This document shows positions 26,078 through 60,513 of a stretch of 64,000 bases of DNA, piece by piece (position 1 is the first letter of the stretch; each line of letters starts with the position of its first letter). Made by a program: the position numbers and the translations under genes. The stretch covers positions 24,563 to 88,562 of the IMG/VR virus record IMGVR_UViG_3300032770_000015; one strand, given 5' to 3'. The notes under the pieces are model-generated. The model saw only the letters and a program-made list of their open reading frames with translations. It had not been told where the DNA came from and searched no databases. The DNA is from a virus.

Positions 26078-26145
26078 CGGTCCGGGCGCCGGATGATTCC
26101 CGGTCGCACCTGATACCGGGTTGACGTAACGCGCGAACGTACGCC

Positions 26146-26173
26146 CGTAAAGCGTTACGGCGTAACGGGTTAC
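26146..26173 (-). repeat. 28-base GTAACC repeat, inverted copy
   Basis: The reverse complement reads GTAACC-N8-CGTAAC-N2-TTTACG, the same pattern as three direct copies at 28088, 28373 and 28648. A TATAAT lies just beyond it at 26187-26192, so it may control a promoter there. The function is unknown. Confidence 0.55.
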
Positions 26174-26186
26174 AGAAACGACTGCA

Positions 26187-26192
26187 TATAAT
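26187..26192 (+). promoter_or_regulatory. TATAAT box without a clear -35
   Basis: A perfect TATAAT sits in an unusually AT-rich stretch of this GC-rich region. No TTGACA-like hexamer is 16-18 bases upstream. The repeat at 26146-26173 overlaps the -35 position, which would fit activator or repressor control. Confidence 0.35.
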
Positions 26193-26597
26193 ATACGTTA
26201 CGTTAAGTAAGCCCGAATAGGCCGCAAGTGGCGTCGCGGCGCGGGTTTACGGCGTCGGCGCCCGGTCGCGGCGTGTTACGGGTTCGGCGCCCGATGACCT
26301 AGGACCACGCGGCGGCGCCGAAACCGGCCGACCCCGGCGCGGCGCGGTTCGCGCGCGGATCGTGACCAGGCGGCCTAGCGGCGGCGTCGTACCGTGACGC
26401 GTGCGACGTTCACGCAGACGACCCGATCCGGCGCTCTTCCGGGCGACCGGGCGGGCGCGCGGCGTCTCACACGTCTACGGGGGCGTCGTGTTTCAAGACG
26501 CAAGGCTGGGCAGAGTGGGCCAAAGCATCTTCCCGACCGCGAACCGGTCGAAGGGGCCTATAAGTGAAAGTCCTTCGTAGGGTCTTCGGCGTTATTG

Positions 26598-26763
26598 GGG
26601 CGATTCGCCCCACAACGTCGGCATTCCGCGGCACTGCGGCGATTCGCGACAGATGGCTATCGCATAATGCGTCACTGCGGCATTCTGCGACACGACTGTA
26701 AAGATTCACGACAGTGGGGCATTTCGCCCATGCAGCAATCGCATTTTGCGGCACTGTCGCCAT
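26598..26763 (+). repeat. Iteron-like array of degenerate 20-base units
   Basis: About eight copies of a unit like GCATTnnGCGnCACTG follow one another roughly every 20 bases. Examples are GCATTCCGCGGCACTG near 26621, CGCATAATGCGTCACTG near 26660, GCATTCTGCGACAC near 26678 and CGCATTTTGCGGCACTG near 26738. Spacing near two helical turns resembles iterons that bind initiators. The unit is degenerate and no initiator is identified. Confidence 0.5.
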
Positions 26764-27582
26764 AGCGCTCCGCTGCCGATCCGGCCGACCCGACCCGGGG
26801 CGTCGCCGACCGGGCGGCGCGGCCGCAAGCCTCTCCCATGTCCACGGGCGCGTCGAACCCGCCGGGCGGGGCGTACCCCGTAGGGGTACGACCCCTGGCC
26901 CGTACGGGTACGACCGACGCGCGCCCGAACCGTTAACCTATTCCCGATCCTATTCCCGTGGCGCGTCGCCGACCGCGTAACCCCGTGGTCCCTGGAGCTT
27001 TGCGCCGCGTCCCGCGTCCCGCCGCGACCGTCGCCGATCCGGCGCGGCTGCAACCTATTCCCGGCGGTCGCGGGCGCCGTTAACGGTAGCGCGGCCGACG
27101 GCGCCCCGGCGCCGTTTCCGGGCAGGCGCAACCGTTCCGTGGCGCGGCGGCGCCGTTTCCGGCCGTCGTCGCCCCGGAACCCTCGGCGCCCGGCCGACTC
27201 CCGCGCTGCTCCGGCCTGCCGCCCGAACCCCGTCCCGTCGGCCCGCGTCGCGTGGCCCCGGAACTGGTCGCCGCCCCCGTCCGCGTAGACGTGCGGAGAA
27301 GCGTGATCCCGCCGCGCCCGGCCCGAACGTAAAGTGGTCCGTCGTCGTCGGTTACTCCGCCCCGGACCGGTCGCCCGACCGAACGCCCGGGCGTCGGGGT
27401 CGGCGCGCCGCTCGCGTGAACCTCGCACGTGACCCTGTCGTTACAGTATCGTTACACGTTCGTTACATCGGGTCGGCCGGTCGCGGCACGGTTTTCGCGC
27501 GCCGCCAGAAGTGTAATCGTTTTGTAACGGAGAAATTTCCGTGCCAGGCCCGGGATTCGCACGCCGCCGCGGAATGCGGCGA

Positions 27583-27600
27583 TGTAACGATCCGATTACA
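27583..27600 (+). promoter_or_regulatory. 18-base pseudo-palindrome, copy 1
   Basis: TGTAACGATCCGATTACA. The outer arms TGTAA/TTACA are symmetric. Near-identical sites occur at 27897 and, inverted, at 28678. About 20 bases downstream there is GGCACGGTTTTTT, also found after the second copy, so operator and promoter-like parts repeat as a unit. Confidence 0.5.
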
Positions 27601-27896
27601 AGGCGACGAACGGGCCGCCGTGGCACGGTTTTTTACGACCCTTGCCGGTGACCCGGAGAAGCGTGCCCCGCGCGCTGCGTGAAACCGGCGGAAAGCCAGG
27701 CGCGGCGCGGGTTTCCGCGATTCACGCCGGGTCGGTCGGGCGGACGGCCGCGCGGTCTTCCGTTCGCACGTCTACGCGGAACGTCGCACGAACGCCCCCG
27801 GAAGTGGCGTCGCGGCGCCGTTTCCGGCACCCGGGCTCGTCGGTTTCGACCCCCGGCACGTCGCGGGGCCGGACCGGGCGTCGCGCCGGGGCGGAA

Positions 27897-27914
27897 TGTA
27901 ACGATCCGGTTACA
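27897..27914 (+). promoter_or_regulatory. 18-base pseudo-palindrome, copy 2
   Basis: TGTAACGATCCGGTTACA, one base different from copy 1. It lies 20 bases upstream of the best sigma70-type promoter in the region, where a regulator could affect polymerase. Confidence 0.5.
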
Positions 27915-27934
27915 TTCGGCCGGTCGGCGCCGCG

Positions 27935-27963
27935 TTGGCACGATTTTTCAAACGTGCTACGAT
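27935..27963 (+). promoter_or_regulatory. Sigma70-type promoter candidate
   Basis: TTGGCA at 27935-27940, exactly 17 bases, then TACGAT at 27958-27963. It points rightward. The same GGCACG-TTTTT and TGACCCG context recurs 314 bases upstream near 27621 with a poorer -10. A leader of about 1.2 kb would follow before the first gene at 29214. Confidence 0.45.
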
Positions 27964-28087
27964 GACCCGTACGCCCCGACCCGTCGCGGAACCGGTTTGT
28001 CGGTAAACCCGCGCCGCGTAACGGGTTACGCTACGTCGCCGGGGCGCGGCCGTATCCCGATAACCCCCACCCCCCGGCAAACGGGTC

Positions 28088-28115
28088 GTAACCCCGTACG
28101 CCGTAACGGTTTACG
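28088..28115 (+). repeat. 28-base GTAACC repeat, copy 1
   Basis: GTAACC-N8-CGTAAC-N2-TTTACG. It matches the copies at 28373 (one base different in N8) and 28648, and inverted at 26146. Three half-sites in fixed spacing suggest a protein binding in a head-to-tail array. Confidence 0.55.
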
Positions 28116-28372
28116 ACCGGTCGCGAAGACGGCCCCCGTTTCCACGTCTACGGTCATCCTCGCACGCCGCATTTCGCCGGGGATCGGACCCGTCGGGTAT
28201 GGCCCGCCGCCCGATTCCCGACCTCGGCGCCCGGCGTTCGCCCGACCGGACCGGGCGCACGACCCCGGCCGACGCCCGCCCGGCGTCGCCGCCGCCCCGG
28301 GGCGGCCCGATCCGGCGGGGGCGCGGGTCCCGGGCAGCCCAGGTCGGAATTCGCGCGTTTATAGGAGAGGTC

Positions 28373-28400
28373 GTAACCGCGTACGCCGTAACGGTTTACG
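28373..28400 (+). repeat. 28-base GTAACC repeat, copy 2
   Basis: Same pattern as the copy at 28088, 285 bases downstream. The copies at 28088, 28373 and 28648 are regularly about 280 bases apart. Confidence 0.55.
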
Positions 28401-28647
28401 GGTGTGATCTCAAGGCCCCCGCCGCCGCGCCCCCGGGCGCCGAACGGCGCAAAACGGTCCCAAACGGCCGATCCGGAGGTGACACGTTTGCACGCGCGCG
28501 GAAGCGTCGTAACCCCGTGGGAATACGGAAGTTACGGCGTTTTCGTCGTGCGCCCATTTTTCCGGTCGCGCCGGACCGTCCAAAATGCCCCGGTTTCGGG
28601 ACCGCCCCCGCCGACCCGGTAGAATCGCGCGTATACTAGCACGACCC

Positions 28648-28675
28648 GTAACCCGTTACGCCGTCGCGCTTTACG
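28648..28675 (+). repeat. 28-base GTAACC repeat, copy 3
   Basis: GTAACC-N8-CGTCGC-N2-TTTACG; the central half-site is altered. It abuts the pseudo-palindrome at 28678. A TATACT lies at 28632-28637. Confidence 0.5.
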
Positions 28676-28695: not shown

Positions 28696-29109
28696 CATCT
28701 ACGGCGACGGCGGCCCGGGATTCGCTACGTTTTCGGGTCGCGGACCCCGGAACGCGGCGCGACGCCGTACCGACCGGGAAAACCGCCGGGGGAACCGCCG
28801 GGCCCAGCGCGCCGCGACGATACCGGGAAGGCGAAGCCGGAACCCCCGAACGAACGAACCCGCGCGACGGACGACGGCGCGGGTCGGGTGAACGAAGCAC
28901 CGACGGGGATGGTCGGATTAACCGGAACCCCCGCCGCCGGACCCCCGACCCGTACTGGGGCGACACCGCCCCCATCGTCCGACTGGTCGTCGCGGGCCGC
29001 CCGCCCGGCGCGCCGGAACATCGGCCGCGAACCCGGGGCGAACGGGCGGGGGTTTTCCGCCGGGGGCCGTTCCCCGAACGCGGACGCGACCCGCCACCGT
29101 TCCAGCGCA

Positions 29110-29184
29110 CGTCGTCCCGCCGGGGCGTCGAATCCCCGGCAGGACATTCGCAGAAACCCCGCCGACCGGTCCGGCCGCGCGGGG
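29110..29184 (+). ncRNA. Structured spacer element, family B, copy 1
   Basis: Hairpin 1: GCCGGGG (29119-29125), loop CGTCGAAT, CCCCGGC. Hairpin 2: CCCCGC (29157-29162) with GCGGGG (29179-29184). The second stem differs in sequence from the other copies but keeps pairing. It lies before the first rightward gene, followed by GAAAGGA. Confidence 0.6.
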
Positions 29185-29213
29185 CGTATCCCCGAACCGA
29201 AAGGAACCGACCC

Positions 29214-29429
29214 GTGGTCCCGATCCGCCTCACGCTCGACCCGCTGGGCGCCGGGTACGTCGAACTCGTCGCCGTCGTGCATGACGCGACGTACGACGCC
29301 GACGTGCGCCGGACGATCCGCGTCTCGCTCGAATCCTTCGGCCCGTCGGCGACCGTCGTTGCCCTGCGGGACGCGAAAGGGAACCTGGTCACGGCCGCCG
29401 ACTGGGCGCTCTTCCCGTCGGTCGCATAA
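29214..29429 (+). CDS. First gene of rightward block, unknown
   Basis: 71 aa, GTG start with AAAGGA upstream. It contains YVELVAVVHDATYDADVRRT and ends in a short beta stretch. Family B elements flank it on both sides. No family recognised. Confidence 0.65.
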   Translation: MVPIRLTLDPLGAGYVELVAVVHDATYDADVRRTIRVSLESFGPSATVVALRDAKGNLVTAADWALFPSVA

Positions 29430-29435
29430 CCCGTC

Positions 29436-29501
29436 GCCGCCCGGCGTCGAATCCGGGCGGCGTCATACGAACCGAACGCCCGCGCCGGACCGGCGCTGGG
29501 C
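29436..29501 (+). ncRNA. Structured spacer element, family B, copy 2
   Basis: Hairpin 1: a perfect 9-bp stem GCCGCCCGG/CCGGGCGGC with loop CGTCGAAT. Hairpin 2: GCCC (29478) to GGGC (29501) around CGCCGG-A-CCGGCG. It is followed by CCGAAAGGGACC and the ATG at 29535. Confidence 0.65.
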
Positions 29502-29534
29502 GAGCCGAAACCCGAACCGAAAGGGACCGTCCGA

Positions 29535-29849: not shown

Positions 29850-29859
29850 CGAACCCGAC

Positions 29860-29928
29860 GGCCCCGGGCTTCGAAACTCGGGGCCGCCTTACGATCCGAA
29901 CCGCCCGCGCCGGACCGGCGCCGGGCGG
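29860..29928 (+). ncRNA. Structured spacer element, family B, copy 3
   Basis: Hairpin 1: GGCCCCGGG with CTCGGGGCC (9 bp, one G-T pair), loop CTTCGAAA. Hairpin 2: CCGCCCG/CGGGCGG around CGCCGG-A-CCGGCG. It is the first of two family B elements in one 263-base spacer. Confidence 0.65.
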
Positions 29929-30012
29929 CGCTGCGTTGGGCACCGGGCCACCGGCCCGGCACGCGACCAGATGCCCCGGGGGTTGGATTCGCCCGGCGGT
30001 CGCCGCCCGCCC

Positions 30013-30080
30013 GACGCCCGGGGGCTTCGAAACCCCCGCGCGTCATCGCTGAACGTCGCCGGGCCGGACGGCCGGGCGAC
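30013..30080 (+). ncRNA. Structured spacer element, family B, copy 4
   Basis: Hairpin 1: GACGC and GGGGG paired with CCCCC and GCGTC, loop CTTCGAAA. Hairpin 2: GTCGCC/GGCGAC around GGCC-GGAC-GGCC. Outer stems differ from the other copies but stay paired. GAAAGGA and GTG 30113 follow. Confidence 0.6.
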
Positions 30081-30112
30081 CCCGTACCCGCCGGACGAAA
30101 GGAACCGTACCC

Positions 30113-30271
30113 GTGGCCCCGCACGCGAACGAAGACCGGATCATCGCACAGCTCGACCGGGACGCCGTCTACCACGTCGCCGACCGCCTCGCGTTCCGCG
30201 TCGCCGACGACGCCGCGATGGCCCGCGCCCTGCGGCCGTACGTCGCCCGCTGCACCGCCGTTACGTTCTGA
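30113..30271 (+). CDS. Small unknown protein
   Basis: 52 aa, GTG start after GAAAGGA. Helical, with DRIIAQLDRDAVYHVADRLA and ALRPYVARCTA. The spacers on either side carry family B elements. Function unknown. Confidence 0.65.
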   Translation: MAPHANEDRIIAQLDRDAVYHVADRLAFRVADDAAMARALRPYVARCTAVTF

Positions 30272-30278
30272 ACCCGTC

Positions 30279-30344
30279 GCCGCCCGGCGTCGAACCCGGG
30301 CGGCGCCTTACGATCCGAACGCCCGCGCCGGACCGGCGCTGGGC
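30279..30344 (+). ncRNA. Structured spacer element, family B, copy 5
   Basis: Hairpin 1: GCCGCCCGG/CCGGGCGGC, loop CGTCGAAC. Hairpin 2: GCCC (30321) to GGGC (30344) around CGCCGG-A-CCGGCG, then GAATTCTTCCCCG and a ribosome site. Confidence 0.65.
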
Positions 30345-30392
30345 GAATTCTTCCCCGATCCGAACCCGCACGACCAGAAAGGGACCGACCCG

Positions 30393-30757: not shown

Positions 30758-30789
30758 ACCTACCGACGAGGCGTGACCCGCCCCGCGTC

Positions 30790-30855
30790 GCCCGGGGGCT
30801 TCGAAACCCCCGGGCGTCGTTCGCTCCGAACGTCCGCGCCGGACCGGCGCTGGGC
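30790..30855 (+). ncRNA. Structured spacer element, family B, copy 6
   Basis: Hairpin 1: GCCCGGGGG/CCCCCGGGC, loop CTTCGAAA. Hairpin 2: GTCC (30832) to GGGC (30855) around CGCCGG-A-CCGGCG. The T pairs with G, so pairing is kept despite the change from GCCC. Confidence 0.65.
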
Positions 30856-30883
30856 GAGTTCTTCCCCGAACCGAAAGGGACGT

Positions 30884-31261
30884 ATGGAACACGACGCGCG
30901 GCACCTCTTCGAAGACCGGTACGGCGACGGTCACCCCTCGACGCGCTACCACGCGCGGCTGATCATCGCCGGGGCCGAGAACGGCCTCGCCGGATACGGC
31001 GTCGTCGTCATCCCGGCCGGATCGTCGGCCCGGCAGGTCCAGGGCGGGCCGCTCGTCCCTGGCCCGTGGGCCGCGACCTTCGGGCTCTGCACCGTCATCG
31101 ACAACGCGGGCGGAACCGGCGCCGAGGTCGCGCGCGAAACCGCCCGGGGCGACGCCATCCGCGTCGCGGCGGGCGATACCGTCCGCCTGACCGACGCCGT
31201 GACGGTCCGCGTTACCATCGGGCGGCGCGAGTACCCGGACCTGACCGTGGTGGACCGGTAG
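30884..31261 (+). CDS. Unknown protein
   Basis: 125 aa from ATG 30884, chosen because AAAGGGACGT lies just upstream; earlier starts would run through the family B hairpins. It contains GYGVVVIPAGSSARQVQGG and ends with beta strands VTVRVTIGRREYPDLTVV. No family recognised. Confidence 0.65.
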   Translation: MEHDARHLFEDRYGDGHPSTRYHARLIIAGAENGLAGYGVVVIPAGSSARQVQGGPLVPGPWAATFGLCTVIDNAGGTGAEVARETARGDAIRVAAGDTVRLTDAVTVRVTIGRREYPDLTVVDR

Positions 31262-31268
31262 GGCCGCC

Positions 31269-31333
31269 GGGCGGGGGCTTCGAAACCCCCGCCCGTCATC
31301 GCTGACCGACGGACGCCGGACCGGCGGGCCGTC
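31269..31333 (+). ncRNA. Structured spacer element, family B, copy 7
   Basis: Hairpin 1: GGGCGGGGG/CCCCCGCCC, loop CTTCGAAA. Hairpin 2: GACGG (31308)/CCGTC (31333) around CGCCGG-A-CCGGCG. The outer helix has changed on both sides relative to GCCC/GGGC in other copies. It is the last family B copy. Confidence 0.65.
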
Positions 31334-31362
31334 CCTATTCCCCGATCCGAAAGGACGAGCTG

Positions 31363-32034
31363 ATGAAGCGCTACCAGATCATCACGGCGAACCGCGCCAC
31401 GAGGTCGCAGGCGGGGTACGCGCAGACGGAATCGTCAACCCTGGAGCTGGGCGAGTCCCTGTTCGTCACCGCCGAGAAGGCCGTCCCGCGCGGCGCCGGG
31501 GTCGAGGTCGAGCTGTTCGACACGGTCAAGAACAAGGTCCTGCGGTCCCGGTACTTCCCGACGCTCGACGAGGCGCGGGCGTCCGTCGCCCGGCGGCTCG
31601 CGAAGCACGTCGAGAGCGAGGTCGAGGCGGCCGAGGCGTCGCTGGCGAAGTTCACCGCCGAGATCAACCGTAACGTGGCGTCGCTCCGCGCCTGGGCCGT
31701 GGCCCGTGCGAACGGCGCCGACCTGACCGACTGGCGGGGCGGGAACACCGACGTGGAGTCGCCGTTCCGCTGGGCCGACGACTCGGTGGCCGCCGCCGCC
31801 CGCCTGATGGTCGCCCGCGAGGTCGAGGAATATCTGGCGACCGACCGCGCGCCGTCGGCCATCGTCGCCGCGCTGCGGACCCAGGTGCTGCGGTCGGCCC
31901 GGAACGGGCTGTCGCGGTCCACGTCGTCGTCGGCGAACCTGACCGAGGAGGCCCGCCTCGCCGCGCGGGCCGCGATGGTCGAGAAGCTCGAAACCATCGT
32001 CGCGTGGGCGACCGACATGGGCGTCGAGGTCTGA
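31363..32034 (+). CDS. Unknown coiled-coil protein
   Basis: 223 aa, ATG after GAAAGGA. The N-terminal 70 residues are beta-rich (VEVELFDTVKNKVLRSRYFP). Residues 80-130 form a charged helix or coiled coil (KHVESEVEAAEASLAKFTAE) and the rest is helical. It is followed by the first family A element. Function unknown. Confidence 0.7.
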   Translation: MKRYQIITANRATRSQAGYAQTESSTLELGESLFVTAEKAVPRGAGVEVELFDTVKNKVLRSRYFPTLDEARASVARRLAKHVESEVEAAEASLAKFTAEINRNVASLRAWAVARANGADLTDWRGGNTDVESPFRWADDSVAAAARLMVAREVEEYLATDRAPSAIVAALRTQVLRSARNGLSRSTSSSANLTEEARLAARAAMVEKLETIVAWATDMGVEV

Positions 32035-32037
32035 ACC

Positions 32038-32102
32038 GCCGAGGGGCGGGCGCCGACGAACCGGCGCCCGTTAAGGCACGGCCCGGTCCCAAGTCCGGGC
32101 GG
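32038..32102 (+). ncRNA. Structured RNA element, family A, copy 1
   Basis: P1 GCC (32038-32040) pairs with GGC in TTAAGGC. P2 is GGGCGCCG/CGGCGCCC. P3 is GCCCGG/CCGGGC with loop TCCCAAGT. GAGGGG after P1 can pair with TCCC of the P3 loop. It starts five bases after the stop of the 223-aa gene. Confidence 0.7.
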
Positions 32103-32195
32103 AACGCAGGACGCCGCGCCAGGTATGGTGCCGGGTAAGCGTCCGTGCCGAACCCCATCACTTGAGGTGACATATGCGGTAGACCCCCGGGTAAC

Positions 32196-32278
32196 GCCGA
32201 GGGCGACGATCCGCCGGGCCGTACGCGCGCCCCGGGTCGTCGTAAGGCGCATGGCCGGTCCCAAGCCCGGCCGAACCC
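32196..32278 (+). ncRNA. Structured RNA element, family A, copy 2
   Basis: P1 is GCC/GGC. P2 is GCGACGA (32203) with TCGTCGT (32237) and a 27-base loop, sequence-unrelated to copy 1 but still paired. P3 is GGCCGG/CCGGCC, loop TCCCAAGC. It is the second element in the 263-base spacer. An imperfect palindrome TCACTTGAGGTGA lies just upstream near 32158. Confidence 0.7.
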
Positions 32279-32297
32279 GAACGAAAGGAACGACCCG

Positions 32298-32672
32298 ATG
32301 TCGCTTCGCTGGCAGATGTCGAACGAGCAGAGCCCCGCGTGGGTGAACCTGTCGCCCGTGATGCGGGAGACCATGATCTTCGGCCTGGTCATCGCCGATA
32401 TGGGCGAGATCAAGGACGAGGCCGCCGCCGAGAAGTTCTGGACCCGGCTCCGGATGGCCGAGCTGGCGCAGGGCGACTCGTTCGTCCACCAGACCCCGGC
32501 GGGCGACGGCCCGATGATCCAGCGTTGGATCACCCTGGCCGACTGCCGGGCGGCCATCGGGCTCGGCGCGAACGTGCGGACGACGACGGACGCGCAGTAC
32601 AATCGGAAGGTCGCCGGTATCCTGCGCGACACGGCCGTCGCCGAGCTGCGGCGGGCGAAGGACGCAAAGTAG
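32298..32672 (+). CDS. Unknown helical protein
   Basis: 124 aa, ATG after GAAAGGA. It contains WVNLSPVMRETMIFGLVIAD, then WTRLRMAELAQGDSF, and ends in a basic helix. The following stop TAG shares its G with a family A element. No family recognised. Confidence 0.65.
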   Translation: MSLRWQMSNEQSPAWVNLSPVMRETMIFGLVIADMGEIKDEAAAEKFWTRLRMAELAQGDSFVHQTPAGDGPMIQRWITLADCRAAIGLGANVRTTTDAQYNRKVAGILRDTAVAELRRAKDAK

Positions 32673-32742
32673 CCGAGGGGCGGGCGCCGATCCGTCGGCG
32701 CCCGTTAAGGCGCACGGCCGGTCCCAAGCCCGGCCGAACCCC
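32672..32742 (+). ncRNA. Structured RNA element, family A, copy 3
   Basis: P1 GCC starts at the last base of the upstream stop codon. P2 is GGGCGCCGA/TCGGCGCCC with loop TCCG. P3 is CGGCCGG/CCGGCCG with loop TCCCAAGC. GGGG next to P1 can pair with TCCC in the loop. Followed by GAACCCC and GGAAAGGA. Confidence 0.75.
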
Positions 32743-32760
32743 AAATGGAAAGGATGCCGG

Positions 32761-33249
32761 ATGAACTACGCGAACGTGCTAGGCGAGGCGAAGGGCAAGT
32801 TTGGCGCGTGGACCGCCTGGTATGTGCTGGGCGAGGCCGCCACCGGGTACGCGGTCCGCGCGCAGTTGGCGCCCGACCTGACGGTGAACCCGTTCACGGA
32901 CACGGACATCTACGGCGCGGTCAAGGAGATGAACAGCACGCAGCGCCCGGCCGGGTTCGACGGCGCAGCGCGGAAGATCCACACGCCCCGGTCGGTGTAC
33001 TGGTGGCAGCCGCCGTCGGATACGCGCGACGCGGCGGTCATCGCGTCCATCGCCGAGCGCGTGCGGCGGTTCCTGAACGACGACTGGTCGTATGTCGGCC
33101 TGCTCGTCGAGGTCCGGCACCCGCCCTGCACGCTGTGCGGCGAATCGCGGGTCACGTCGGCCGGGCTCTGGGGCATCGAGTCGGACAGCGACGACGGGTA
33201 CGTGATCGAGACGCTAGGCGACCTCGTGAACGAGGCGAAGGACGAGTAA
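32761..33249 (+). CDS. Unknown protein, aromatic-rich
   Basis: 162 aa, ATG after GAAAGGA. It contains KFGAWTAWYVLGEAATGYAV and PRSVYWWQPPSDTRDAAVIA, then CTLCGES. The single CxxC is too little for a zinc site on its own. It looks like a conserved phage-type protein; function unknown. Confidence 0.7.
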   Translation: MNYANVLGEAKGKFGAWTAWYVLGEAATGYAVRAQLAPDLTVNPFTDTDIYGAVKEMNSTQRPAGFDGAARKIHTPRSVYWWQPPSDTRDAAVIASIAERVRRFLNDDWSYVGLLVEVRHPPCTLCGESRVTSAGLWGIESDSDDGYVIETLGDLVNEAKDE

Positions 33250-33250
33250 C

Positions 33251-33318
33251 GCCGAGGGCGACCGCCGCGCGGTTCCGGCGGTCGTAAGGCACGGCCCGGT
33301 CCCAAGTCCGGGCGACCC
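33251..33318 (+). ncRNA. Structured RNA element, family A, copy 4
   Basis: P1 is GCC (33251)/GGC. P2 is GCGACCGCC/GGCGGTCGT, again a new sequence with pairing kept. P3 is GCCCGG/CCGGGC with loop TCCCAAGT. GAGGGC supplies three G for the CCC of the loop. Confidence 0.7.
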
Positions 33319-33337
33319 CATCAACGAAAGGACGTGT

Positions 33338-33538
33338 ATGGCGCTCGTGATGCTGCCCCGTACCGACGACCTGCCGCCGGTGTACGTGAACCCGGCGCAC
33401 GTCGTCGGCGTCGAACCGTCGGTGACCGACCCCGGCGCGCCGGTCTGCACCGTGTACGTGCTCCCCGGGAACCGGGGCCACTTCGTCGCCCTGTCGGCGC
33501 TCGAGGCCGCCCGCCGCCTGAACGGGGGTGCCGCGTGA
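33338..33538 (+). CDS. Small beta protein, FlbD-like layout
   Basis: 66 aa, ATG after GAAAGGA. The order VYVNPAHVVGVEP, TVYVLPG, FVALSALEAARRL resembles small FlbD-like beta proteins in layout only. Its stop overlaps the GTG of the next gene (GTGA). Confidence 0.65.
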   Translation: MALVMLPRTDDLPPVYVNPAHVVGVEPSVTDPGAPVCTVYVLPGNRGHFVALSALEAARRLNGGAA

Positions 33539-33915
33539 GGACGAAGCTGAACGCCCTGTTCAAGGCGCTGCGCCAGGCGGGCGTCGCGGCGCACCAGAAC
33601 TACGAGTGCTGCCAGGGGTGCGGCTGCGCCCGCGTCGCGTCCGAGATCGGCGTCGTCGGCGCGTACGTCTTCTATCACCACCAGGACGCCGAAGACCTCG
33701 AGCCCCCGCGCCATCACCGTGCGGGCGACGGCTGGCGGCCCGGCGTCTACCTGGCGTACGGGATCGTGTCGGCCGTGGAGCTGCCGGACGCGGTGGAAGA
33801 GGCCCTGCGGCTGAAGGTGGGCGAGCTGATCCGGAGGCTCGCCACCGTGGTCGGGCTCGCCGTCGAGTGGGACGGGACGACCGCGCAGCGCATCTGGGTC
33901 ACGGAGGCCGCGTGA
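33535..33915 (+). CDS. DUF6891-like protein
   Basis: 126 aa from GTG 33535. It carries AHQNYECCQGCGCARVASEI, then AYVFYHHQDAEDLE, then YLAYGI. The CC-x2-CGC cluster and the YVFYHxQD motif fit what I recall of the DUF6891 family, whose role is unknown. The Cys cluster may bind metal. Coupled to neighbours by 4-base overlaps. Confidence 0.7.
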   Translation: MRTKLNALFKALRQAGVAAHQNYECCQGCGCARVASEIGVVGAYVFYHHQDAEDLEPPRHHRAGDGWRPGVYLAYGIVSAVELPDAVEEALRLKVGELIRRLATVVGLAVEWDGTTAQRIWVTEAA

Positions 33916-34238
33916 TCGACACCCTCGAGCCGTCGCCGCGCCGCGAGCCCACGCGGCAGATGTTCATCGTTCCGAACGACCCCGCCGGGCGGGCGGTCAT
34001 CGCCACTCTGCGCGCATACCTGAACCGGGCGACCTACCGCCTGCGGGTCGTCGGCCGGGGCGTCCGCGCCGACCGCGCCCGCGAGTTCCGCCGCACGCAC
34101 CGGGCCTGGGCGACCCGGCGCCCCGACTACGCCTGGATTCCGCGCCGGTACGCGACCCGCCTGGCCGTGTACATCGAGCGCAAGGACGGGATCGGGATCA
34201 ACTGGCAGCAGCTCCGCACGCTGTACCCCGTCCGTTAG
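33912..34238 (+). CDS. Basic unknown protein
   Basis: 108 aa from GTG 33912 (GTGA overlap). Arg-rich, with YRLRVVGRGVRADRAREFRR in the middle and WQQLRTLYPVR at the end. The charge suggests nucleic acid binding. No family recognised. Confidence 0.65.
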   Translation: MIDTLEPSPRREPTRQMFIVPNDPAGRAVIATLRAYLNRATYRLRVVGRGVRADRAREFRRTHRAWATRRPDYAWIPRRYATRLAVYIERKDGIGINWQQLRTLYPVR

Positions 34239-34307
34239 CCGAGGGGCGGGCGCCGATCCGTCGGCGCCCGTTAAGGCGCACCGCCGGTCCCAAGTCCGGC
34301 GGAACCC
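34238..34307 (+). ncRNA. Structured RNA element, family A, copy 5
   Basis: P1 GCC starts in the upstream TAG. P2 is GGGCGCCGA/TCGGCGCCC. P3 is CCGCCGG (34281)/CCGGCGG, loop TCCCAAGT. The P3 outer pairs differ on both strands from copies 1 to 4. Followed by GAGAAAGG and ATG 34329. Confidence 0.75.
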
Positions 34308-34328
34308 ACTGGAGAAAGGCTGGGCGAG

Positions 34329-34670
34329 ATGTCCGACGTGCAGATCACGAAGGTTCACGCCGTCGAGTGGCACCGCAACGGCGTCGGCGGGCTCGGGTTC
34401 CACGTCGTCCTGTTTGACGAGGCTACGGAGGGGCGGATGATGGCCGTGGACTTCGGCCCCGAGGCCGACGCGGCGACGGATTCCTTCGGGGTCATCGCGG
34501 TCTTCCAGCTCGACAAGCTAGCGGCCGGTGACGTGGCCTTCGGGTCGAACTCGTGGCGCGGCGACCACTACACCGGGCCAGTCCGGGCGGTCATCACGGC
34601 GGCCGAGGCGCGGGGCGAGACCGGGAAGCTCGGGCCGTTCTCGCTGCCGCCGCAGCTTCGCCGGAAGTAG
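34329..34670 (+). CDS. Unknown protein
   Basis: 113 aa, ATG after GAAAGGCTGGGCGAG. Beta-rich N-terminus (VHAVEWHRNGVGGLGFHVVL), then FGVIAVFQLDKLAAGDVAFG. It lies alone between two family A elements. Function unknown. Confidence 0.65.
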   Translation: MSDVQITKVHAVEWHRNGVGGLGFHVVLFDEATEGRMMAVDFGPEADAATDSFGVIAVFQLDKLAAGDVAFGSNSWRGDHYTGPVRAVITAAEARGETGKLGPFSLPPQLRRK

Positions 34671-34736
34671 CCGAGGGGCGGGCGCCGATGGATCGGCGCC
34701 CGTTAAGGCACGGCCCGGTCCCAAGTCCGGCGACCC
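34670..34736 (+). ncRNA. Structured RNA element, family A, copy 6 (P3 decayed)
   Basis: P1 and P2 are intact (GGGCGCCGAT/ATCGGCGCCC). P3 has GCCCGG on the left but CCGGCG on the right, so one G seems lost and only four pairs remain. The loop TCCCAAGT is kept. It is the only copy with a damaged helix. Confidence 0.6.
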
Positions 34737-34757
34737 ATCTCAAAGGAGGCAGCCGGT

Positions 34758-35072
34758 ATGAGCGCACGCGTCTTCGTCTGGCCCGAGCGGACCTACGAGG
34801 AGCTGGGCGCCGAACGCTGGGCCGTGTCCTGGAAGACCGTGCGGCCCGGCGCCAACGTAAATGAGGAGATCGACTTCGACGTCGACCTCGTGGACCGCGC
34901 CGTCGCCTGCCGGACCCACGCGGCGGCGGTTGCCCGCGCGCGGCGCGCCGCCGCCGAGGACTACTTCGGCGGGGCGGTCGTTCAGCGCCAGGTCGTCGCG
35001 TGGGACGTCGAGGAGGACCGCATCGCCGAGTGGGCCCCCGCTGGTGAACCCGAATATGTGGAGGACCGATGA
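34758..35072 (+). CDS. Unknown acidic protein
   Basis: 104 aa, ATG after AAAGGAGG. It contains VFVWPERTYEELGAERWAVS, then a helical Ala/Arg region and an acidic end. Its stop overlaps the next ATG (ATGA). Confidence 0.65.
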   Translation: MSARVFVWPERTYEELGAERWAVSWKTVRPGANVNEEIDFDVDLVDRAVACRTHAAAVARARRAAAEDYFGGAVVQRQVVAWDVEEDRIAEWAPAGEPEYVEDR

Positions 35073-35428
35073 GACCGCGCACGTCGATCATCGTCGCCCT
35101 TCGGCCCGGCCGAACCCAGGCCGCGGCCGACCGCCGCGAGCGGATGGAGACCATCATCCTGGCCGAGGCCCGCGCCCGGGGCGTCCGGTATGACGGGTCG
35201 GGGAACTACGTCACGGGGCCGCGGCGCGGGACGCGCGAGCTTTTCTTCGTGACGCGCCGGCGCGACCTGACCGTCGCCGCCGTCCGCGACCTGAAGGCCG
35301 ACGTCCGCGAGGCGGAGCACTTCGCCTACCGGACGTACTTCATCACCCGGGACTATGGGACCGGCGCCTGGCTCGTGAACCGCGGCGGCCGGACCGTCGC
35401 CGCCGCCGCCCGGGCGCTGGTCCGTTAG
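35069..35428 (+). CDS. Unknown protein, paralogue of 38120 gene
   Basis: 119 aa, ATG overlapping the previous stop. The C-terminal half, RRRDLTVAAVRDLKADVRE then HFAYRTYFITRDYGTGAWLV, matches the 38120-38395 product (DLTRAAIRDLKVDLR, HFSYRGFYVTRSFSTATWYI). The shared unit of about 60 residues looks like a small alpha/beta domain. Function unknown. Confidence 0.7.
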   Translation: MRPRTSIIVALRPGRTQAAADRRERMETIILAEARARGVRYDGSGNYVTGPRRGTRELFFVTRRRDLTVAAVRDLKADVREAEHFAYRTYFITRDYGTGAWLVNRGGRTVAAAARALVR

Positions 35429-35557
35429 CCGAGGGGCGGGTGCCCGTCCGCGATGCGCCGCTGGGTCGAGCCGGGTTCCGACCGGCGCCAGCACGCGGTC
35501 TCGCACGACGTGGTACCCGTTAAGGCGCACCGCCGGTCCCAAGCCCGGCGGAACCCC
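35428..35557 (+). ncRNA. Structured RNA element, family A, copy 7 (long P2)
   Basis: P1 GCC starts in the upstream TAG. P2 is CGGGTGCC with GGTACCCG, so GTG/TAC replaces the usual pairing, and its loop is over 60 bases with further inverted repeats. P3 is CCGCCGG/CCGGCGG, loop TCCCAAGC. The long insertion at P2 shows that arm tolerates extension. Confidence 0.7.
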
Positions 35558-35578
35558 ACTAGAGAAAGGCTGGGCGAG

Positions 35579-35938
35579 ATGGATGAGCGGCAGGCATCGC
35601 GTGAGGCAGCCGAGGACGTGCGGTACGAGCGCTGGGAGGCGCTATTGTTCAAGCACGTGCCCGGCCTGACGCGCGGGAAGAATCCGGCGTGGCGGTCCGA
35701 CTTGATGATGGAGGCCGATGGCGGCCCGATCTTCATGAAGTTCATGTCGGACGGTGGCGTGGATGACACGCCGAACGGTCTGGCGCTGCGGGCCTGGCTC
35801 CGGGCGCGGAAGATTCCGTTCCGGCAGTATGGGCTGAAGGAGGACCCCGGCCAGGTGCGGGTCTTCACGCTGTCGCGGCGGGCGTTCGCCCGGGTCGAGG
35901 CCATTCTGCGCGGGCTCGAGCGCCGCGCGGCGCGGTAA
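35579..35938 (+). CDS. Unknown protein
   Basis: 119 aa from ATG 35579, after GAGAAAGGCTGGGCGAG. It contains YERWEALLFKHVPGLTRGKN, then GVDDTPNGLALRAWLRARKI and FTLSRRAFARVEAILR. The last part looks like a helix-turn-helix-like helical pair. Function unknown. Confidence 0.65.
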   Translation: MDERQASREAAEDVRYERWEALLFKHVPGLTRGKNPAWRSDLMMEADGGPIFMKFMSDGGVDDTPNGLALRAWLRARKIPFRQYGLKEDPGQVRVFTLSRRAFARVEAILRGLERRAAR

Positions 35939-36038
35939 GCCGAGGGCTGCTGGTGCTAAAGGTCGCAAGGGCCGAGGGACGGGCGCCCCGATCCGGGCGC
36001 CCGTTAAGGCGCGCCGCCGGTCCCAAGTCCGGCGGAAC
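35939..36038 (+). ncRNA. Structured RNA element, family A, copy 8 with truncated partner
   Basis: The full copy starts at 35971: P1 GCC/GGC, P2 GGGCGCCC/GGGCGCCC, P3 CGCCGG/CCGGCG, loop TCCCAAGT. GAGGGA gives four Watson-Crick pairs with TCCC. Just before it, 35939-35970 starts with the same GCCGAGGG and has TAAAGGT, a decayed half element without P3. Confidence 0.7.
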
Positions 36039-36056
36039 CCCGAACGAAAGGACCGT

Positions 36057-36389
36057 ATGATCACGACGAAGCGGCTGATCTTCCACCTCGACGCGGCCAT
36101 CGCGCGGCACGTCCGCGACTGGCAGCGCCTGACCGAGCACGGCACGATTGCCGTCGACTCGGACGTGATAGCGCTGTACGCGCAGGACATGGCCGCGCTA
36201 ATGCGGGCGCGGTCGGCGTTCTGCCACGCCAGGTTGGTCGAGGAGCACAGCACGTGGGACACGGCGACCGTCGCCCGGCTGCTGCGCCGGGGCGCGCGCA
36301 TCTTGCGCGACCGCGACACGGCGGTCACCGACCACTTTCCCCGCCCGCTCGTCCTGGCGGTCGGGTCGCTGGTCGGCGACGGCGCGTGA
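36057..36389 (+). CDS. Unknown helical protein
   Basis: 110 aa, ATG after GAAAGGACC. Helical throughout, with RHVRDWQRLTEHGTIAVDSD and ALMRARSAFCHARLVEEHST. Overlaps the next gene by four bases. No family recognised. Confidence 0.65.
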   Translation: MITTKRLIFHLDAAIARHVRDWQRLTEHGTIAVDSDVIALYAQDMAALMRARSAFCHARLVEEHSTWDTATVARLLRRGARILRDRDTAVTDHFPRPLVLAVGSLVGDGA

Positions 36390-36634
36390 TCAACACGCAG
36401 CGCGCCCGCGCCGCGCTTAACCGGCTCATCGCGGCGGCCGACGACACGGCCGTTGACCAGGCGTTCCTCGACCGCTTCCTGCGCCGTGCACCGACGTATG
36501 CGAATGCGTGCGAGGCCTGCGGGAAGCAGGTCGCCACCACCACCATCCTGGGCCACGGGTACTGCGCCCACTGCGGGAACGTCGCGCTCGAGGTCATCGA
36601 GGCCCGGCGCGCCCGCCGAAAGGAGACCGCGTGA
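36386..36634 (+). CDS. Small zinc-ribbon protein
   Basis: 82 aa from GTG 36386 (GTGA). CEACGKQ and CAHCGN, 16 residues apart near positions 48-70, form a four-Cys zinc ribbon. A helical N-terminus and a basic C-terminal helix flank it. Probably a nucleic-acid or protein binding adaptor; no finer call. Confidence 0.7.
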   Translation: MINTQRARAALNRLIAAADDTAVDQAFLDRFLRRAPTYANACEACGKQVATTTILGHGYCAHCGNVALEVIEARRARRKETA

Positions 36635-37056
36635 AGAAGGTCCGCCACCGGACGACCCGCGCCACGCTGCTGGTCGTTGACCGCCTGAACCTGACCGACC
36701 TGCCCGGAAAGGATCTCGCCGGGGCCGACCTCGCCGAGGAGGACCTGGGCGCGACGAACCTGCGCGCCGCCAGCCTGCGCGGCGCCGACCTCCACGGGGC
36801 GTGGCTGCGCCGGACGAACCTGAACGACGCCGACCTCCACGCGGCCGACCTGCGCGGCGTGGACGCGCAGGGCGCGGACCTGCAGCGCGCGAACCTCTCG
36901 AACGCCGACCTCACCGGGGCTGACCTGCAGGGCGCCGACCTGCGCGGGGCAAACTTCGCCGGGGCGTGCTTGACCGACGCCGACCTGCGCGGCGCGAACC
37001 TGCGCGGCGTCGCCGTGACGGTCGGCAACCGCACCATCCTGACGTCCAACGCCTAA
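36631..37056 (+). CDS. Pentapeptide-repeat protein
   Basis: 141 aa from GTG 36631 (GTGA). From about residue 20 to 125 it is a run of A(D/N)LxG/A pentapeptides (GADLAEEDLGATNLRAASL and so on), which form a right-handed square beta-helix. Members such as MfpA and Qnr mimic DNA and protect gyrase. A phage copy could influence host gyrase or another DNA enzyme, but no target can be read from the sequence. Confidence 0.85.
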   Translation: MKKVRHRTTRATLLVVDRLNLTDLPGKDLAGADLAEEDLGATNLRAASLRGADLHGAWLRRTNLNDADLHAADLRGVDAQGADLQRANLSNADLTGADLQGADLRGANFAGACLTDADLRGANLRGVAVTVGNRTILTSNA

Positions 37057-37057
37057 C

Positions 37058-37121
37058 GCAGAGGAGGGCCGGGACCGATCCCCGGCCCTAATGCGGCGGC
37101 CCGGTTCCAAGCCCGGGCGAC
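37058..37121 (+). ncRNA. Structured RNA element, family A, copy 9 (compensated)
   Basis: P1 is GCA (37058-37060) with TGC (37092-37094), replacing GCC/GGC on both sides. P2 is GGGCCGGG/CCCGGCCC. P3 is GCCCGG/CCGGGC with loop TTCCAAGC. The sequence after P1 is GAGGAG, so GGA faces TCC where other copies have GGG facing CCC. It is the most informative copy for structure. Confidence 0.75.
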
Positions 37122-37148
37122 GTTCACCCCCGAAACGAGGGAGCGCTG

Positions 37149-37544
37149 ATGAAGCAGACCCACGTGATGAACCGCGCGACGGCGGCCGAGCTGGGCGATG
37201 CCCTGCTCGCGGCGGCGGGCGACATCGCGACCCGGTACGGCCTCGAGGTCGAGGCGGCGGCCGGGTCGTTCAGCACGACGGAGTTCAAGGGCTCCGTCCG
37301 GTTCAAGCTGCCCGCGACGAACCCCCGCGTGGCCGAGAAGCTCGCGGCGGACTTCGCCGACCTGCACCTCAACCCGGCCATCGTCGGCTGCCAGATGACG
37401 GTGCGCCGCCACACGTACACCGTCACCGGCGTGAAGCCCTACGCCAAGTACTGCATCGTGACCCGCCGCGATGACGGGAAGACGTTCATGTTCCCGTACG
37501 CGACGGCCGAAAAGCACTTCCCGACGATGGTCACCCGGCCGTGA
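37149..37544 (+). CDS. Unknown phage protein
   Basis: 131 aa, ATG. It contains GSVRFKLPATNPRVAEKLAA, then FADLHLNPAIVGCQM, and ends PYATAEKHFPTM. Alpha/beta in appearance. It heads a long chain of genes joined by 4-base overlaps. Function unknown. Confidence 0.7.
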   Translation: MKQTHVMNRATAAELGDALLAAAGDIATRYGLEVEAAAGSFSTTEFKGSVRFKLPATNPRVAEKLAADFADLHLNPAIVGCQMTVRRHTYTVTGVKPYAKYCIVTRRDDGKTFMFPYATAEKHFPTMVTRP

Positions 37545-37852
37545 CCGACCACACCGGGGAAGTCTACGGCCCGGCGGTCCTGCTCGGGACGCTGCCGGTC
37601 GGCGCGCGGTTCCGGTCGGTGATCGTGGACGTGCCGCCGCGCGGGTTCCGCCCGCTGCCCGACCGGATCAAGTACGGCACGCTCGAGGATCTGTCGTCCG
37701 CCTGCGCCACGGTCACCGTCGAACGGGTCGTGTCGCGGACGTTCACGACCGAGGAAGGGAAGGACGTGACCCTGGCCACGGCGTCCGAGCGGACGACGTG
37801 GAGCCTCGGCACCGTGGTCGAACCCCTGCTCACGCCGGAGGTGCTCGTGTGA
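37541..37852 (+). CDS. Unknown beta-rich protein
   Basis: 103 aa from GTG 37541 (GTGA). Mostly beta strands, with FRPLPDRIKYGTLED and VTVERVVSRTFTTEEGKDVT. No family recognised. Confidence 0.65.
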   Translation: MTDHTGEVYGPAVLLGTLPVGARFRSVIVDVPPRGFRPLPDRIKYGTLEDLSSACATVTVERVVSRTFTTEEGKDVTLATASERTTWSLGTVVEPLLTPEVLV

Positions 37853-57782: not shown

Positions 57783-58683
57783 TGGCCGCTGCCTGGGCCG
57801 CGATCAGCGCTCCATACGGCGGCAGGACGCGGGCGGCGTCCCGGTGGGTCCGGTACGCGAGGACCGAGAGGTACATGTTCCACGGGGCCAGGACCGACGC
57901 GGGCTCGAAGTGGCGGCTGAGGATCGTGTCCCCGGCCATCTCGCCGAACAGCGTATCGAGGTCGTCGGGCGGGTACGTCAGGTCCGGCGACCGCAGGACG
58001 AACGGGTAGTGGCCCTGGTCGTAGGCCTCGACGACGGCGGCGGCCTTCGCGGCGTCGCGGTCGTAGATGTGCAGCGATCCGACCGTGTGGTAGTACCCGG
58101 CGACCGGGTCACCGACGGCACGGGCGACGTAGGCCTGCAGCTGCGTGAACGTGAACAGGTCGTACGGGAACCCGAGCCACGCGTCGTTCGACCGCATGTA
58201 CACGTGAAGCTCGAGCCCGGCGGCGCGCCGCATGAACTGCAGGGTCGTCGTGCACGGGATGTCGCGCGACGGCGCCGGGGCCGGACGCCAGAACGTGACG
58301 ACCGCCTGGCGCGAATCGTGGTCGTGCAGCGTGTCGATGGCCCAGCCGATCTGGTCGAGGAATGGCGGCCCGTAGGCCCCGGCGAATACCACGCCGTCGT
58401 CGGAGAACTGCGCGATGTTCTTGTTGAAATAGCTGATCGTCGCCACGTCGCGGTGGCCGAGCAAGATCCAGAGCCACTCGGCGACCGAGAACGGGTAGTT
58501 CAGCTTCCGCGCGGGCGACGTGATCACGTTCGACCGGGCGTCGGTCAGGATCAGGGTCGGGTGGCGTAGCTCGCGGGTCGGCTGCCCCCGCGGCGTGACC
58601 ACCTCGCCGTAGGCAGCTGTGATCGCGAGGACCTGGCGGTACAGCTCGTCGGCGGTGCGCGCGACGATCCGGTTGGCGGTCAT
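57775..58683 (-). CDS. Thymidylate-synthase-fold protein, dCMP hydroxymethylase-like
   Basis: 302 aa. It aligns with ThyA: AEWLWILLG keeps the Glu of E. coli Glu58, DIPCTTTLQF keeps the catalytic Cys (PCT not PCH), and RSNDAWLGFPYDLFTF covers the substrate site; SLHIY keeps the His and Tyr. E. coli Asn177 is Asp here (FPYD against PFN), the change known to switch the T4 enzyme to dCMP. It is therefore predicted to hydroxymethylate dCMP or CMP rather than make dTMP. Product not proven. Confidence 0.75.
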   Translation of the reverse strand: MTANRIVARTADELYRQVLAITAAYGEVVTPRGQPTRELRHPTLILTDARSNVITSPARKLNYPFSVAEWLWILLGHRDVATISYFNKNIAQFSDDGVVFAGAYGPPFLDQIGWAIDTLHDHDSRQAVVTFWRPAPAPSRDIPCTTTLQFMRRAAGLELHVYMRSNDAWLGFPYDLFTFTQLQAYVARAVGDPVAGYYHTVGSLHIYDRDAAKAAAVVEAYDQGHYPFVLRSPDLTYPPDDLDTLFGEMAGDTILSRHFEPASVLAPWNMYLSVLAYRTHRDAARVLPPYGALIAAQAAANG

Positions 58684-59102
58684 GCGGACTCTCCTGGGGT
58701 GATGTCACCCTGGATGATGACGAGCCCGGCGCGCATCGCGTCGGGCATCTTGACGTTGGCGACCACATCGTGGGCCGTGAGGGTCATCGTCTGCGCCTCG
58801 TAGCCCACGGGCCAGCGGCGCAGCCACCAGGCGGGCGCCCAGCGCTCCTTGAACGCCTGGACCCACGTGGCCGGATACCGGACCGTGAGCGTCTTACTAG
58901 CGAACTTGTCGCTGTAGAGCTGTAGGTCGAGTGTCAGGATCAGGCGCTCGGCCTCCTCGATGAGGCACGGCCGCAGCTCCCCGAGCAGCGGGGCCATACG
59001 GCGCGGAATGAACCGGCTGATGCTGACCCAGATGTCCTTCTTGAGCTCGACGAGGTTCATGGGAACCGTCGCGCAGGGATCGGTGTCGTCGGGGGTCGTC
59101 AT
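58680..59102 (-). CDS. Unknown protein
   Basis: 140 aa from ATG 59102 (ATGA). It contains RFIPRRMAPLLGELRPCLIE, then YPATWVQAFKERWAPAWWLR and WPVGYEAQTMTLTAHDVVAN. This last part (Trp-rich, xPVxYE) occurs in phage proteins of unknown role. It overlaps the hydroxymethylase-like gene. Confidence 0.65.
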   Translation of the reverse strand: MTTPDDTDPCATVPMNLVELKKDIWVSISRFIPRRMAPLLGELRPCLIEEAERLILTLDLQLYSDKFASKTLTVRYPATWVQAFKERWAPAWWLRRWPVGYEAQTMTLTAHDVVANVKMPDAMRAGLVIIQGDITPGESA

Positions 59103-60052
59103 TCTTTGATCGCCTCGATGAGCGCGTATGGCTCGTGGTGGTGGAACCGCTTCGCATACTGGGGGTGCGGTACCTCGACGTAGCGGACGCCCCACTCGTC
59201 ACACCAGGGCGTGACGCGCTTCCGGCACCAGGCGGCGGCGATCCGGCCGAGCGCGATGACCTTGTAGGGCTCGAGCGCGTCGAGGAAGTCCGCCCGGGTC
59301 GGGCGCCCGTCGGGCCGCGTGGCGTTGACGAAGTAGAGGCGCCGCTCGCTGACCCCGGCTTCGTCGAGCTGTTCGGCCAGCCACTCATTGCAGCCGCCGC
59401 GGCCGCAGAACGGCGGGTTCTCCCAGCGTAGGCGGCCGGGGCGCCAGCGGTGCGTGTTCGGCGCCTCGCCGACGAGCAACGTGACCCCGGGCCGGAACGA
59501 TCCGCCCCCGGGGCCGAGGTTCCGGGGCGGCGCCGCGTAGAGCACCCGCAGCAGCACCTTCTCCGGGGTCGTCGCCGTATAGTCGTAGACCCACGATTCA
59601 AGCGCCGTGTCGGCCCGCTCGAACCCGGCGTAGACGGCCCGGTACCCGGCCTCGTCGGGGAACATCTCGCCTCCGGCGGCCTTCCGCGCCGCCCAGTTAC
59701 CGTGGGCAACGGCGAACGGCGGCAGGGCGGTGATCAGGATCGCGCCGCGCGATAGGAGGGCGCGCTCGAGCATGCGCTGCCCGGCGATCCCGAGCGCGTC
59801 GCGCCCCCGGTAGATCGGCCCGTACACCTGCTCGCCGATGTGGAACCGGTCGAAGATGACCGACCCCGGGTTCCGGCAGAGGAGGCGCATGGACTCGGTG
59901 AACGGGTCACCGGCGTACACGCCCTGGTGGTAGTAGCTGAACGTGACGCCGTGCGTGTGCCCGAGCTGCTGGAGCGCCCGGGCCAGCTTCGTCTTCCCGG
60001 CGCCGTCCGGCCCTTCGATGATGACGACCTGCCCCGTGCCCGGCTGCCTCAT
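59099..60052 (-). CDS. P-loop kinase fused to UDG-like domain
   Basis: 317 aa from ATG 60052 (ATGA). Residues 1-165 are a thymidylate-kinase-like P-loop kinase: VVIIEGPDGAGKTKLARAL, then VIFDRFHIGEQVYGPIYRGR. Residues about 180-317 resemble the uracil-DNA glycosylase superfamily: TLLVGEAPN, then NPPFCGRGGCNEWLAEQLDE, LYFVNATRPDG, and VPHPQYAKRF. The kinase could phosphorylate a modified dNMP. The second domain may excise or process bases. A fusion of this sort is unusual. Confidence 0.8.
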   Translation of the reverse strand: MRQPGTGQVVIIEGPDGAGKTKLARALQQLGHTHGVTFSYYHQGVYAGDPFTESMRLLCRNPGSVIFDRFHIGEQVYGPIYRGRDALGIAGQRMLERALLSRGAILITALPPFAVAHGNWAARKAAGGEMFPDEAGYRAVYAGFERADTALESWVYDYTATTPEKVLLRVLYAAPPRNLGPGGGSFRPGVTLLVGEAPNTHRWRPGRLRWENPPFCGRGGCNEWLAEQLDEAGVSERRLYFVNATRPDGRPTRADFLDALEPYKVIALGRIAAAWCRKRVTPWCDEWGVRYVEVPHPQYAKRFHHHEPYALIEAIKE

Positions 60053-60513
60053 AGGTCGGCCCCCACGTACTCGAGGATGCTCCGGAGATCGGGCGGTTCC
60101 CAGCCCGCGGGCTTCACGATGCCCTGCTTCTCGCTCGTCCCGGCCTGCACCTTGCGCATGTTCGCCCCGTGGACCGCATCCCAGCAGGCCTGCCACGGGA
60201 TGCCCATCATCACGGCGCTGCCCAGCGCCACGTACACGAGGTCCACGAGCGCATCGGCCTCGCCGACCGTGTCCTGCGCGATGAGCGCCTTCCGGTACTC
60301 CTCCAGCTCTTCTTTCAGGTGACTGAACCGCTGCGTGGCGACCTCGACGCCGACGGACCGGATCAGGGGGCCGGGACGCGGCCCCTTCGGCAGGTTGAAC
60401 TTCCGGTGGAAGGCCGCCACGTCCTCGGCGTTCGTCGTCGGAATCGGCCGGGCGACCGGCACGCGGGCGCGTTCTATCGCGGCGCGCACGTTGGCTTCCT
60501 CGACGGGCGTCAT
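60049..60513 (-). CDS. MazG-like NTP pyrophosphohydrolase
   Basis: 154 aa from ATG 60513 (TGATG overlap). AFHRKFNLP, then LKEELEEYRKALI and EADALVDLVYVALGSAVMMG carry the ExxE and ExxD metal ligands of the all-alpha NTP pyrophosphatase family. It may clear unwanted dNTPs so that a modified one is used. Partner genes support a nucleotide role. Confidence 0.8.
   Translation of the reverse strand: MTPVEEANVRAAIERARVPVARPIPTTNAEDVAAFHRKFNLPKGPRPGPLIRSVGVEVATQRFSHLKEELEEYRKALIAQDTVGEADALVDLVYVALGSAVMMGIPWQACWDAVHGANMRKVQAGTSEKQGIVKPAGWEPPDLRSILEYVGADL

Follow-up and report, generated by a model that had tools for sequence, protein, structure and literature searches.

Known twister and hammerhead ribozymes number in the thousands, and a review has called their biological functions largely speculative (PMC5408937). 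Twisters cut between a U and an A; the conserved adenine and a guanine of the active site are considered contributors to the acid-base catalysis (PMC5408937). In phages, the cutting of polycistronic RNA has been proposed for prophage hammerhead clusters by Perreault et al. (2011); their report describes in vitro cutting for three of them, cutting in E. coli for one triple cluster, and a mapped transcript 5′ end within three nucleotides of a hammerhead cut in haloviruses HF1 and HF2 (PMC3088659). The theta (HDV-like) ribozymes of gut phages are likewise small, self-cleaving RNAs that serve RNA processing in phage genomes, although they form another class and sit 3′ of tRNA genes (PMC10879173).

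The array described below resembles the hammerhead clusters in that several same-strand ribozymes flank single genes or short blocks (PMC3088659), but it is made of a different ribozyme class, the twister. It is also larger: the triple is the largest hammerhead cluster described in that part of the paper, whereas the window has nine elements and related contigs have as many as 20, and neither abutment on stop codons nor complete filling of the spacers is described there (PMC3088659). A description of a twister array has not been found in the literature searched, whose scope excluded the primary papers (nchembio.1386, nchembio.1846), and an earlier account is possible.

Nine twister-P5 elements in a phage gene array

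We have analysed a viral DNA stretch of 64,000 nucleotides (positions 24,563 to 88,562 of IMG/VR record IMGVR_UViG_3300032770_000015), here called the window. By class membership, the nine repeated spacer elements in it are type-P5 twister ribozymes and would accordingly be expected to cleave themselves. Eight match the Rfam family RF02684 (Twister-P5) at 47.2-56.5 bits, where the gathering score is 37.6 bits. Copy 7 has been recovered at 27.4 bits, under gathering, in a relaxed-threshold search; its low score is due to a long insertion in the P1 hairpin, and its minimum-energy fold places P2, the extended P1 and P4 in the correct order. The initial annotation knew of no named class that fits and suggested a comparison with Rfam; that comparison overturns its statement by returning an existing family. 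The class is therefore already known, and the window elements are additional members. They agree with it in covariance score, in stems P1, P2 and P4, in both pseudoknots, in the U-A cut site and in the circular permutation of type P5, with P1 a closed hairpin and the ends at the P2-P4 side. They differ in two respects: P2 is a 3-bp GCC/GGC helix lacking the customary A-U pair in eight copies, and P1 is greatly extended in copy 7. All nine lie on the plus strand between 32038 and 37116, the 88,562-base record holds no others, and neither the window nor the remainder of the record contains a further Rfam family at gathering score.

The elements are set into a plus-strand array of 15 genes (31363-37852), mostly unnamed. 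The first gene (31363-32034) ends in a TGA at 32032-32034, upstream of copy 1 (32038-32098; RF02684 54.7 bits, R1 50.6 bits; predicted cut T32072^A32073), which shares its spacer with copy 2 (32196-32270; 47.2 bits; T32243^A32244), a form with a long P1. Between the two lies a spacer within the spacer (32099-32195) that has no clear gene and is perhaps what remains of a lost one. The TAG of the second gene (32298-32672) overlaps copy 3 (32672-32733; 55.3 bits; T32706^A32707). The third gene (32761-33249) is followed by copy 4 (33251-33311; 53.6 bits; T33285^A33286), and genes four to six (33338-33538; 33535-33915, a DUF6891 protein; 33912-34238) by copy 5 (34238-34299; 54.9 bits; T34272^A34273), which is overlapped by a stop TAG, as is copy 6 (34670-34730; 55.7 bits; T34704^A34705) behind gene seven (34329-34670). 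Genes eight and nine (34758-35072, 35069-35428) lead to copy 7 (35428-35548; predicted cut T35521^A35522), whose P1 insertion is large and branched in the minimum-energy fold and which is again overlapped by a stop TAG; an in-frame ATG at 35453 within it could lengthen the next gene (35579-35938) at its upstream end. Directly after the TAA of that gene (35936-35938) and before copy 8 (35971-36032; 51.6 bits; T36005^A36006), a partial repeat of the element's 5′ end (GCCGAGGG..., 35939-35970, plus strand) is recognizable by sequence and is probably a remnant. Genes 11 to 13 (36057-36389, 36386-36634 and 36631-37056, the last with pentapeptide repeats) precede copy 9 (37057-37116; RF02684 56.5 bits, R1 65.3 bits; T37089^A37090), which has a canonical CGCA/TGCG P2, and genes 14 and 15 (37149-37544, 37541-37852) close the array.

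From 32034 to 37149 every gapped junction holds a ribozyme (eight of eight), and the ungapped ones are 4-base overlaps without a ribozyme, as is the next junction at 37544/37541. Most stop codons abut or overlap a ribozyme, with the ribosome site about 25 bases downstream. The nine copies of the initial annotation are thus all present, in eight spacers rather than nine, two of them sharing 32034-32298. Its three-helix layout also stands, under other names: the helices that it labelled P1, P2 and P3 correspond to P2, P1 and P4 of the twister. Its motifs hold in part: TTAAGGC is found in six copies and replaced by GTAAGGC at 32196 and 33251 and by CTAATGC at 37057, and the GAACCC given as following the last hairpin is not general, with 33251, 34670 and 37057 deviating. 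In the window, TTAAGGC occurs six times (1.1 expected by chance) and TCCCAAGY eight times (2.1 expected), every instance within an element.

Covariation of stems and pseudoknots

Relatives have been gathered from IMG/VR by degenerate patterns and confirmed with RF02684, and a covariance model has been built on 17 of them, excluding the window copies. The resulting alignment holds 150 elements, 143 of them distinct; it includes near-duplicate rows (in two contig pairs, both members carry an identical or almost identical phage), so that its counts are not independent events. Among the 143, double compensatory changes are seen in 15 of the 15 modelled pairs of P1, P2 and P4, and 95.3% of cells are paired, compared with 58% in column shuffles and 33-40% for slid partners, in an alignment that was fitted to these stems and favours them. 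The pseudoknots are outside the model. T1, in which the GGG of GA[GGG] pairs with CCC in loop L4, has 30 double changes (1.8 in shuffles) at a pairing rate of 99.5%, and takes the forms GGG/CCC, GAG/CUC, GUG/CAC, GCG/CGC, AGG/CCU and GGA/UCC; copy 9 carries the last, a compensatory change within the window itself. T2 joins the dinucleotide after P2 to the L4 loop (AC/GU, GC/GC, GG/CC, AG/CU, GA/UC, CC/GG), and its two Watson-Crick pairs are possible in 134 of 143 elements, against a mean of 63 and a maximum of 81 in 1000 shuffles. Copy 5 is among the nine exceptions and forms T2 only with a mismatch.

The core, by contrast with a mean identity between contigs of about 53%, is nearly invariant over the 143 distinct relatives: U^AA at the cut site (U before the cut in 140, AA after it in all 143), GA (in all 143) and GGUCCCAAG, with the loop G in 142. 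The near-invariant loop G and G of GA are candidates for the catalytic guanine. A folded RNA under selection, as the initial annotation had proposed, is strongly supported by the covariation of the stems, T1 and T2, and its description of the RNA as pseudoknotted is borne out. Its guess of mRNA processing matches what a self-cleaving ribozyme does, and binding of a protein finds no support in this analysis; taken as a whole, its interpretation is partly supported.

Recurrence in other phages

At least one element above the cut-off is present in 59 viral contigs, and 29 of these carry three or more copies, a proportion biased upward because many-copy contigs are likelier to match a pattern. The largest counts per contig are 20, 15 and 14. 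At every locus all elements share the strand of the reading frames that flank them, and twister arrays that fill the spacers of a whole operon recur as a strong pattern. Most downstream genes are small. Tandem duplication of a gene together with its ribozyme has been rejected, as the genes are unrelated. A cultured example is the Tunturiibacter phage Tunturi_4 (PP885687.1), with four twister-P5 copies in the stretch 49349-67381, at 25, 0, 4 and 0 nt from the annotated stops and one of them between the genes of a DNA polymerase processivity factor and a DNA methyltransferase. Their predicted cut sites fall within 58349-63149 of the record, on its minus strand. They are absent from the record's annotation, and ribozymes go unmentioned in the main text of the phage's description (PMC11924767); Tunturi 1, 2, 3 and 5 contain zero twister-P5 elements. 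With arrays known from numerous phage contigs and from one phage in culture, which has a laboratory host (Tunturiibacter empetritectus M8UP27), a role in operon cutting is directly testable, and the arrays are a source of many natural type-P5 variants for engineering.

The window's own variant has given zero matches in IMG/VR with a strict pattern, and a looser pattern for the 3′ half has given 19, none confirmed by Rfam. In a genome collection, 47 pattern matches have proved real on one contig only, JABWBA010000087.1 of a Chthonomonadales MAG, whose two twister-P5 elements are 95% identical and which may be of phage origin and have been binned with the bacterium. The major head protein of the window phage has few relatives, one at 62% on a 6.7-kb contig without twisters and others at about 33% in Nanhaivirus phages, which carry no twisters; the phage therefore lacks a close named relative.

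Proposed operon cutting and its alternatives

We consider it probable, at roughly 80%, that co-transcriptional self-cleavage cuts the polycistronic phage RNA into hairpin-capped mRNAs of one to three genes. From the class, the covarying fold, the spacer positions and the recurrence, we infer cleavage in the cell, the ends that it would leave, and an effect on stability or translation. Also in favour of this reading are the single strand used at each locus, the spacing to stop and start codons given below, the lack of any terminator or promoter pattern in the plus-strand spacers, and the hammerhead precedent. The intergenic RNA would fold on transcription into P2, P1, P4 and the pseudoknots T1 and T2, and then break its own backbone between the U and the A of U^AA. 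If the region 31.3-37.9 kb is spanned by a single transcript, it would be severed at as many as nine sites, giving predicted single-gene fragments for 32298-32672, 32761-33249, 34329-34670 and 35579-35938, and predicted multi-gene fragments for the coupled trio 33338-34238, the pair 34758-35428 and the trio 36057-37056. At every cut, the upstream piece would be closed off by the P1 hairpin and bear a 2′,3′-cyclic phosphate, and the downstream piece would start with a 5′-OH on AAGGC (AAUGC after the last cut), followed by the P4 hairpin and the ribosome site. A 5′-OH RNA end may be unstable in RNase J hosts. The likely benefit would be a separate mRNA for every translational unit, shielded by hairpins at both ends and insulated from its neighbours, such that the output of each gene could be set independently.

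A parallel is offered by RiboJ, an insulator ribozyme based on the hammerhead. It too cleaves a leader and leaves a hairpin before the ribosome site, and it increases downstream expression (PMC6206723), although it is a synthetic part placed 5′ of a gene and not between natural genes. By this analogy, insulation of neighbouring genes is plausible. In E. coli, however active a twister was in a 5′ UTR whose Shine-Dalgarno (SD) sequence lay free, the eGFP level did not change, and cutting alone therefore need not alter expression (PMC5052635).

Cleavage might instead be coupled to translation: P2 and the T1 strand, which lie immediately behind the stop codon, would be covered by a terminating ribosome. 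The ribozyme would then fold only where termination on the upstream gene does not occur, and regulated cutting would balance the output of neighbours. Over all loci, the upstream stop begins 1-11 nt before P2 at 113 of 151 elements, an underestimate where the codon model chose the wrong frame, compared with 32 of 755 random anchors (4%), and an SD-preceded start lies downstream of 143 of 150 elements, at a median of 25 nt. Both ribosome footprints therefore border the ribozyme. Genome compactness, however, gives the same spacing, and the stop-codon abutment could reflect nothing else. Twisters are moreover counted among the fastest-cleaving ribozymes (PMC5408937). With no conditional element seen among those examined, we regard such coupling as unlikely, though credible.

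Near-identical spacers could also serve at the DNA level, as sites of gene-swapping recombination whose RNA fold would be secondary, much as the promoter-stem-loop cassettes of T4-type phages do. Copies sharing a contig are in some cases 94-98% identical even though the genes behind them are unrelated, and the 143 downstream genes fall into 123 clusters, with a single homologous pair inside an array. Nevertheless, the compensation seen in both pseudoknots and in all three stems, together with the invariant core, needs selection at the RNA level, which makes a DNA linker very unlikely as the primary role; recombination linking may be an additional or side effect.

Twister product ends (5′-OH and 2′,3′-cyclic phosphate) suit RtcB, and fragments between two cuts could in principle be joined into circular mRNAs by an RtcB-type ligase or by the reverse ribozyme reaction. 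Among 24 array-bearing records, however, none has an RtcB or RNA_ligase gene; neighbouring copies cross-pair at 71%, no better than the 73% of non-neighbours, and hammerhead clusters searched for circles have yielded none (PMC3088659). Circularisation by an RNA ligase has been dropped as a leading idea for want of a ligase gene and of special pairing between neighbours, and we hold circular mRNAs to be highly improbable. That the hairpins are transcription terminators or attenuators rather than ribozymes can be practically dismissed: P1 is indeed a strong, G+C-rich hairpin right behind the stop codon, but UAAGGC or UAAUGC without a U run follows it, the plus-strand spacers contain no terminator-like site (nor any promoter pattern), and T1, T2 and the core would be left unexplained.

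The gene run that carries the twister array contains, immediately upstream of it, a second family of structured spacer elements, which takes the same slot between stop and SD sequence. Its seven plus-strand copies (29107-29186, 29426-29505, 29850-29930, 30006-30083, 30269-30348, 30780-30859 and 31259-31336) have two covarying hairpins, the first with the loop CKTCGAAN, followed by GAAAGG-type ribosome sites. The family has no Rfam match at E<=1 and no convincing match in the other array loci, and a pattern scan has given one weak match only. It is a candidate for a new processing element or ribozyme. A wider view, in which ribozymes are the standard, ribosome-timed separator of a whole phage class and the second family is a new ribozyme class with the same job, appears distinctly unlikely. 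Further upstream, at 26143-28675, a mostly non-coding stretch contains five copies of a 32-nt repeat such as GGTCGTAACCCCGTACGCCGTAACGGTTTACG, which are possibly operator or origin repeats.
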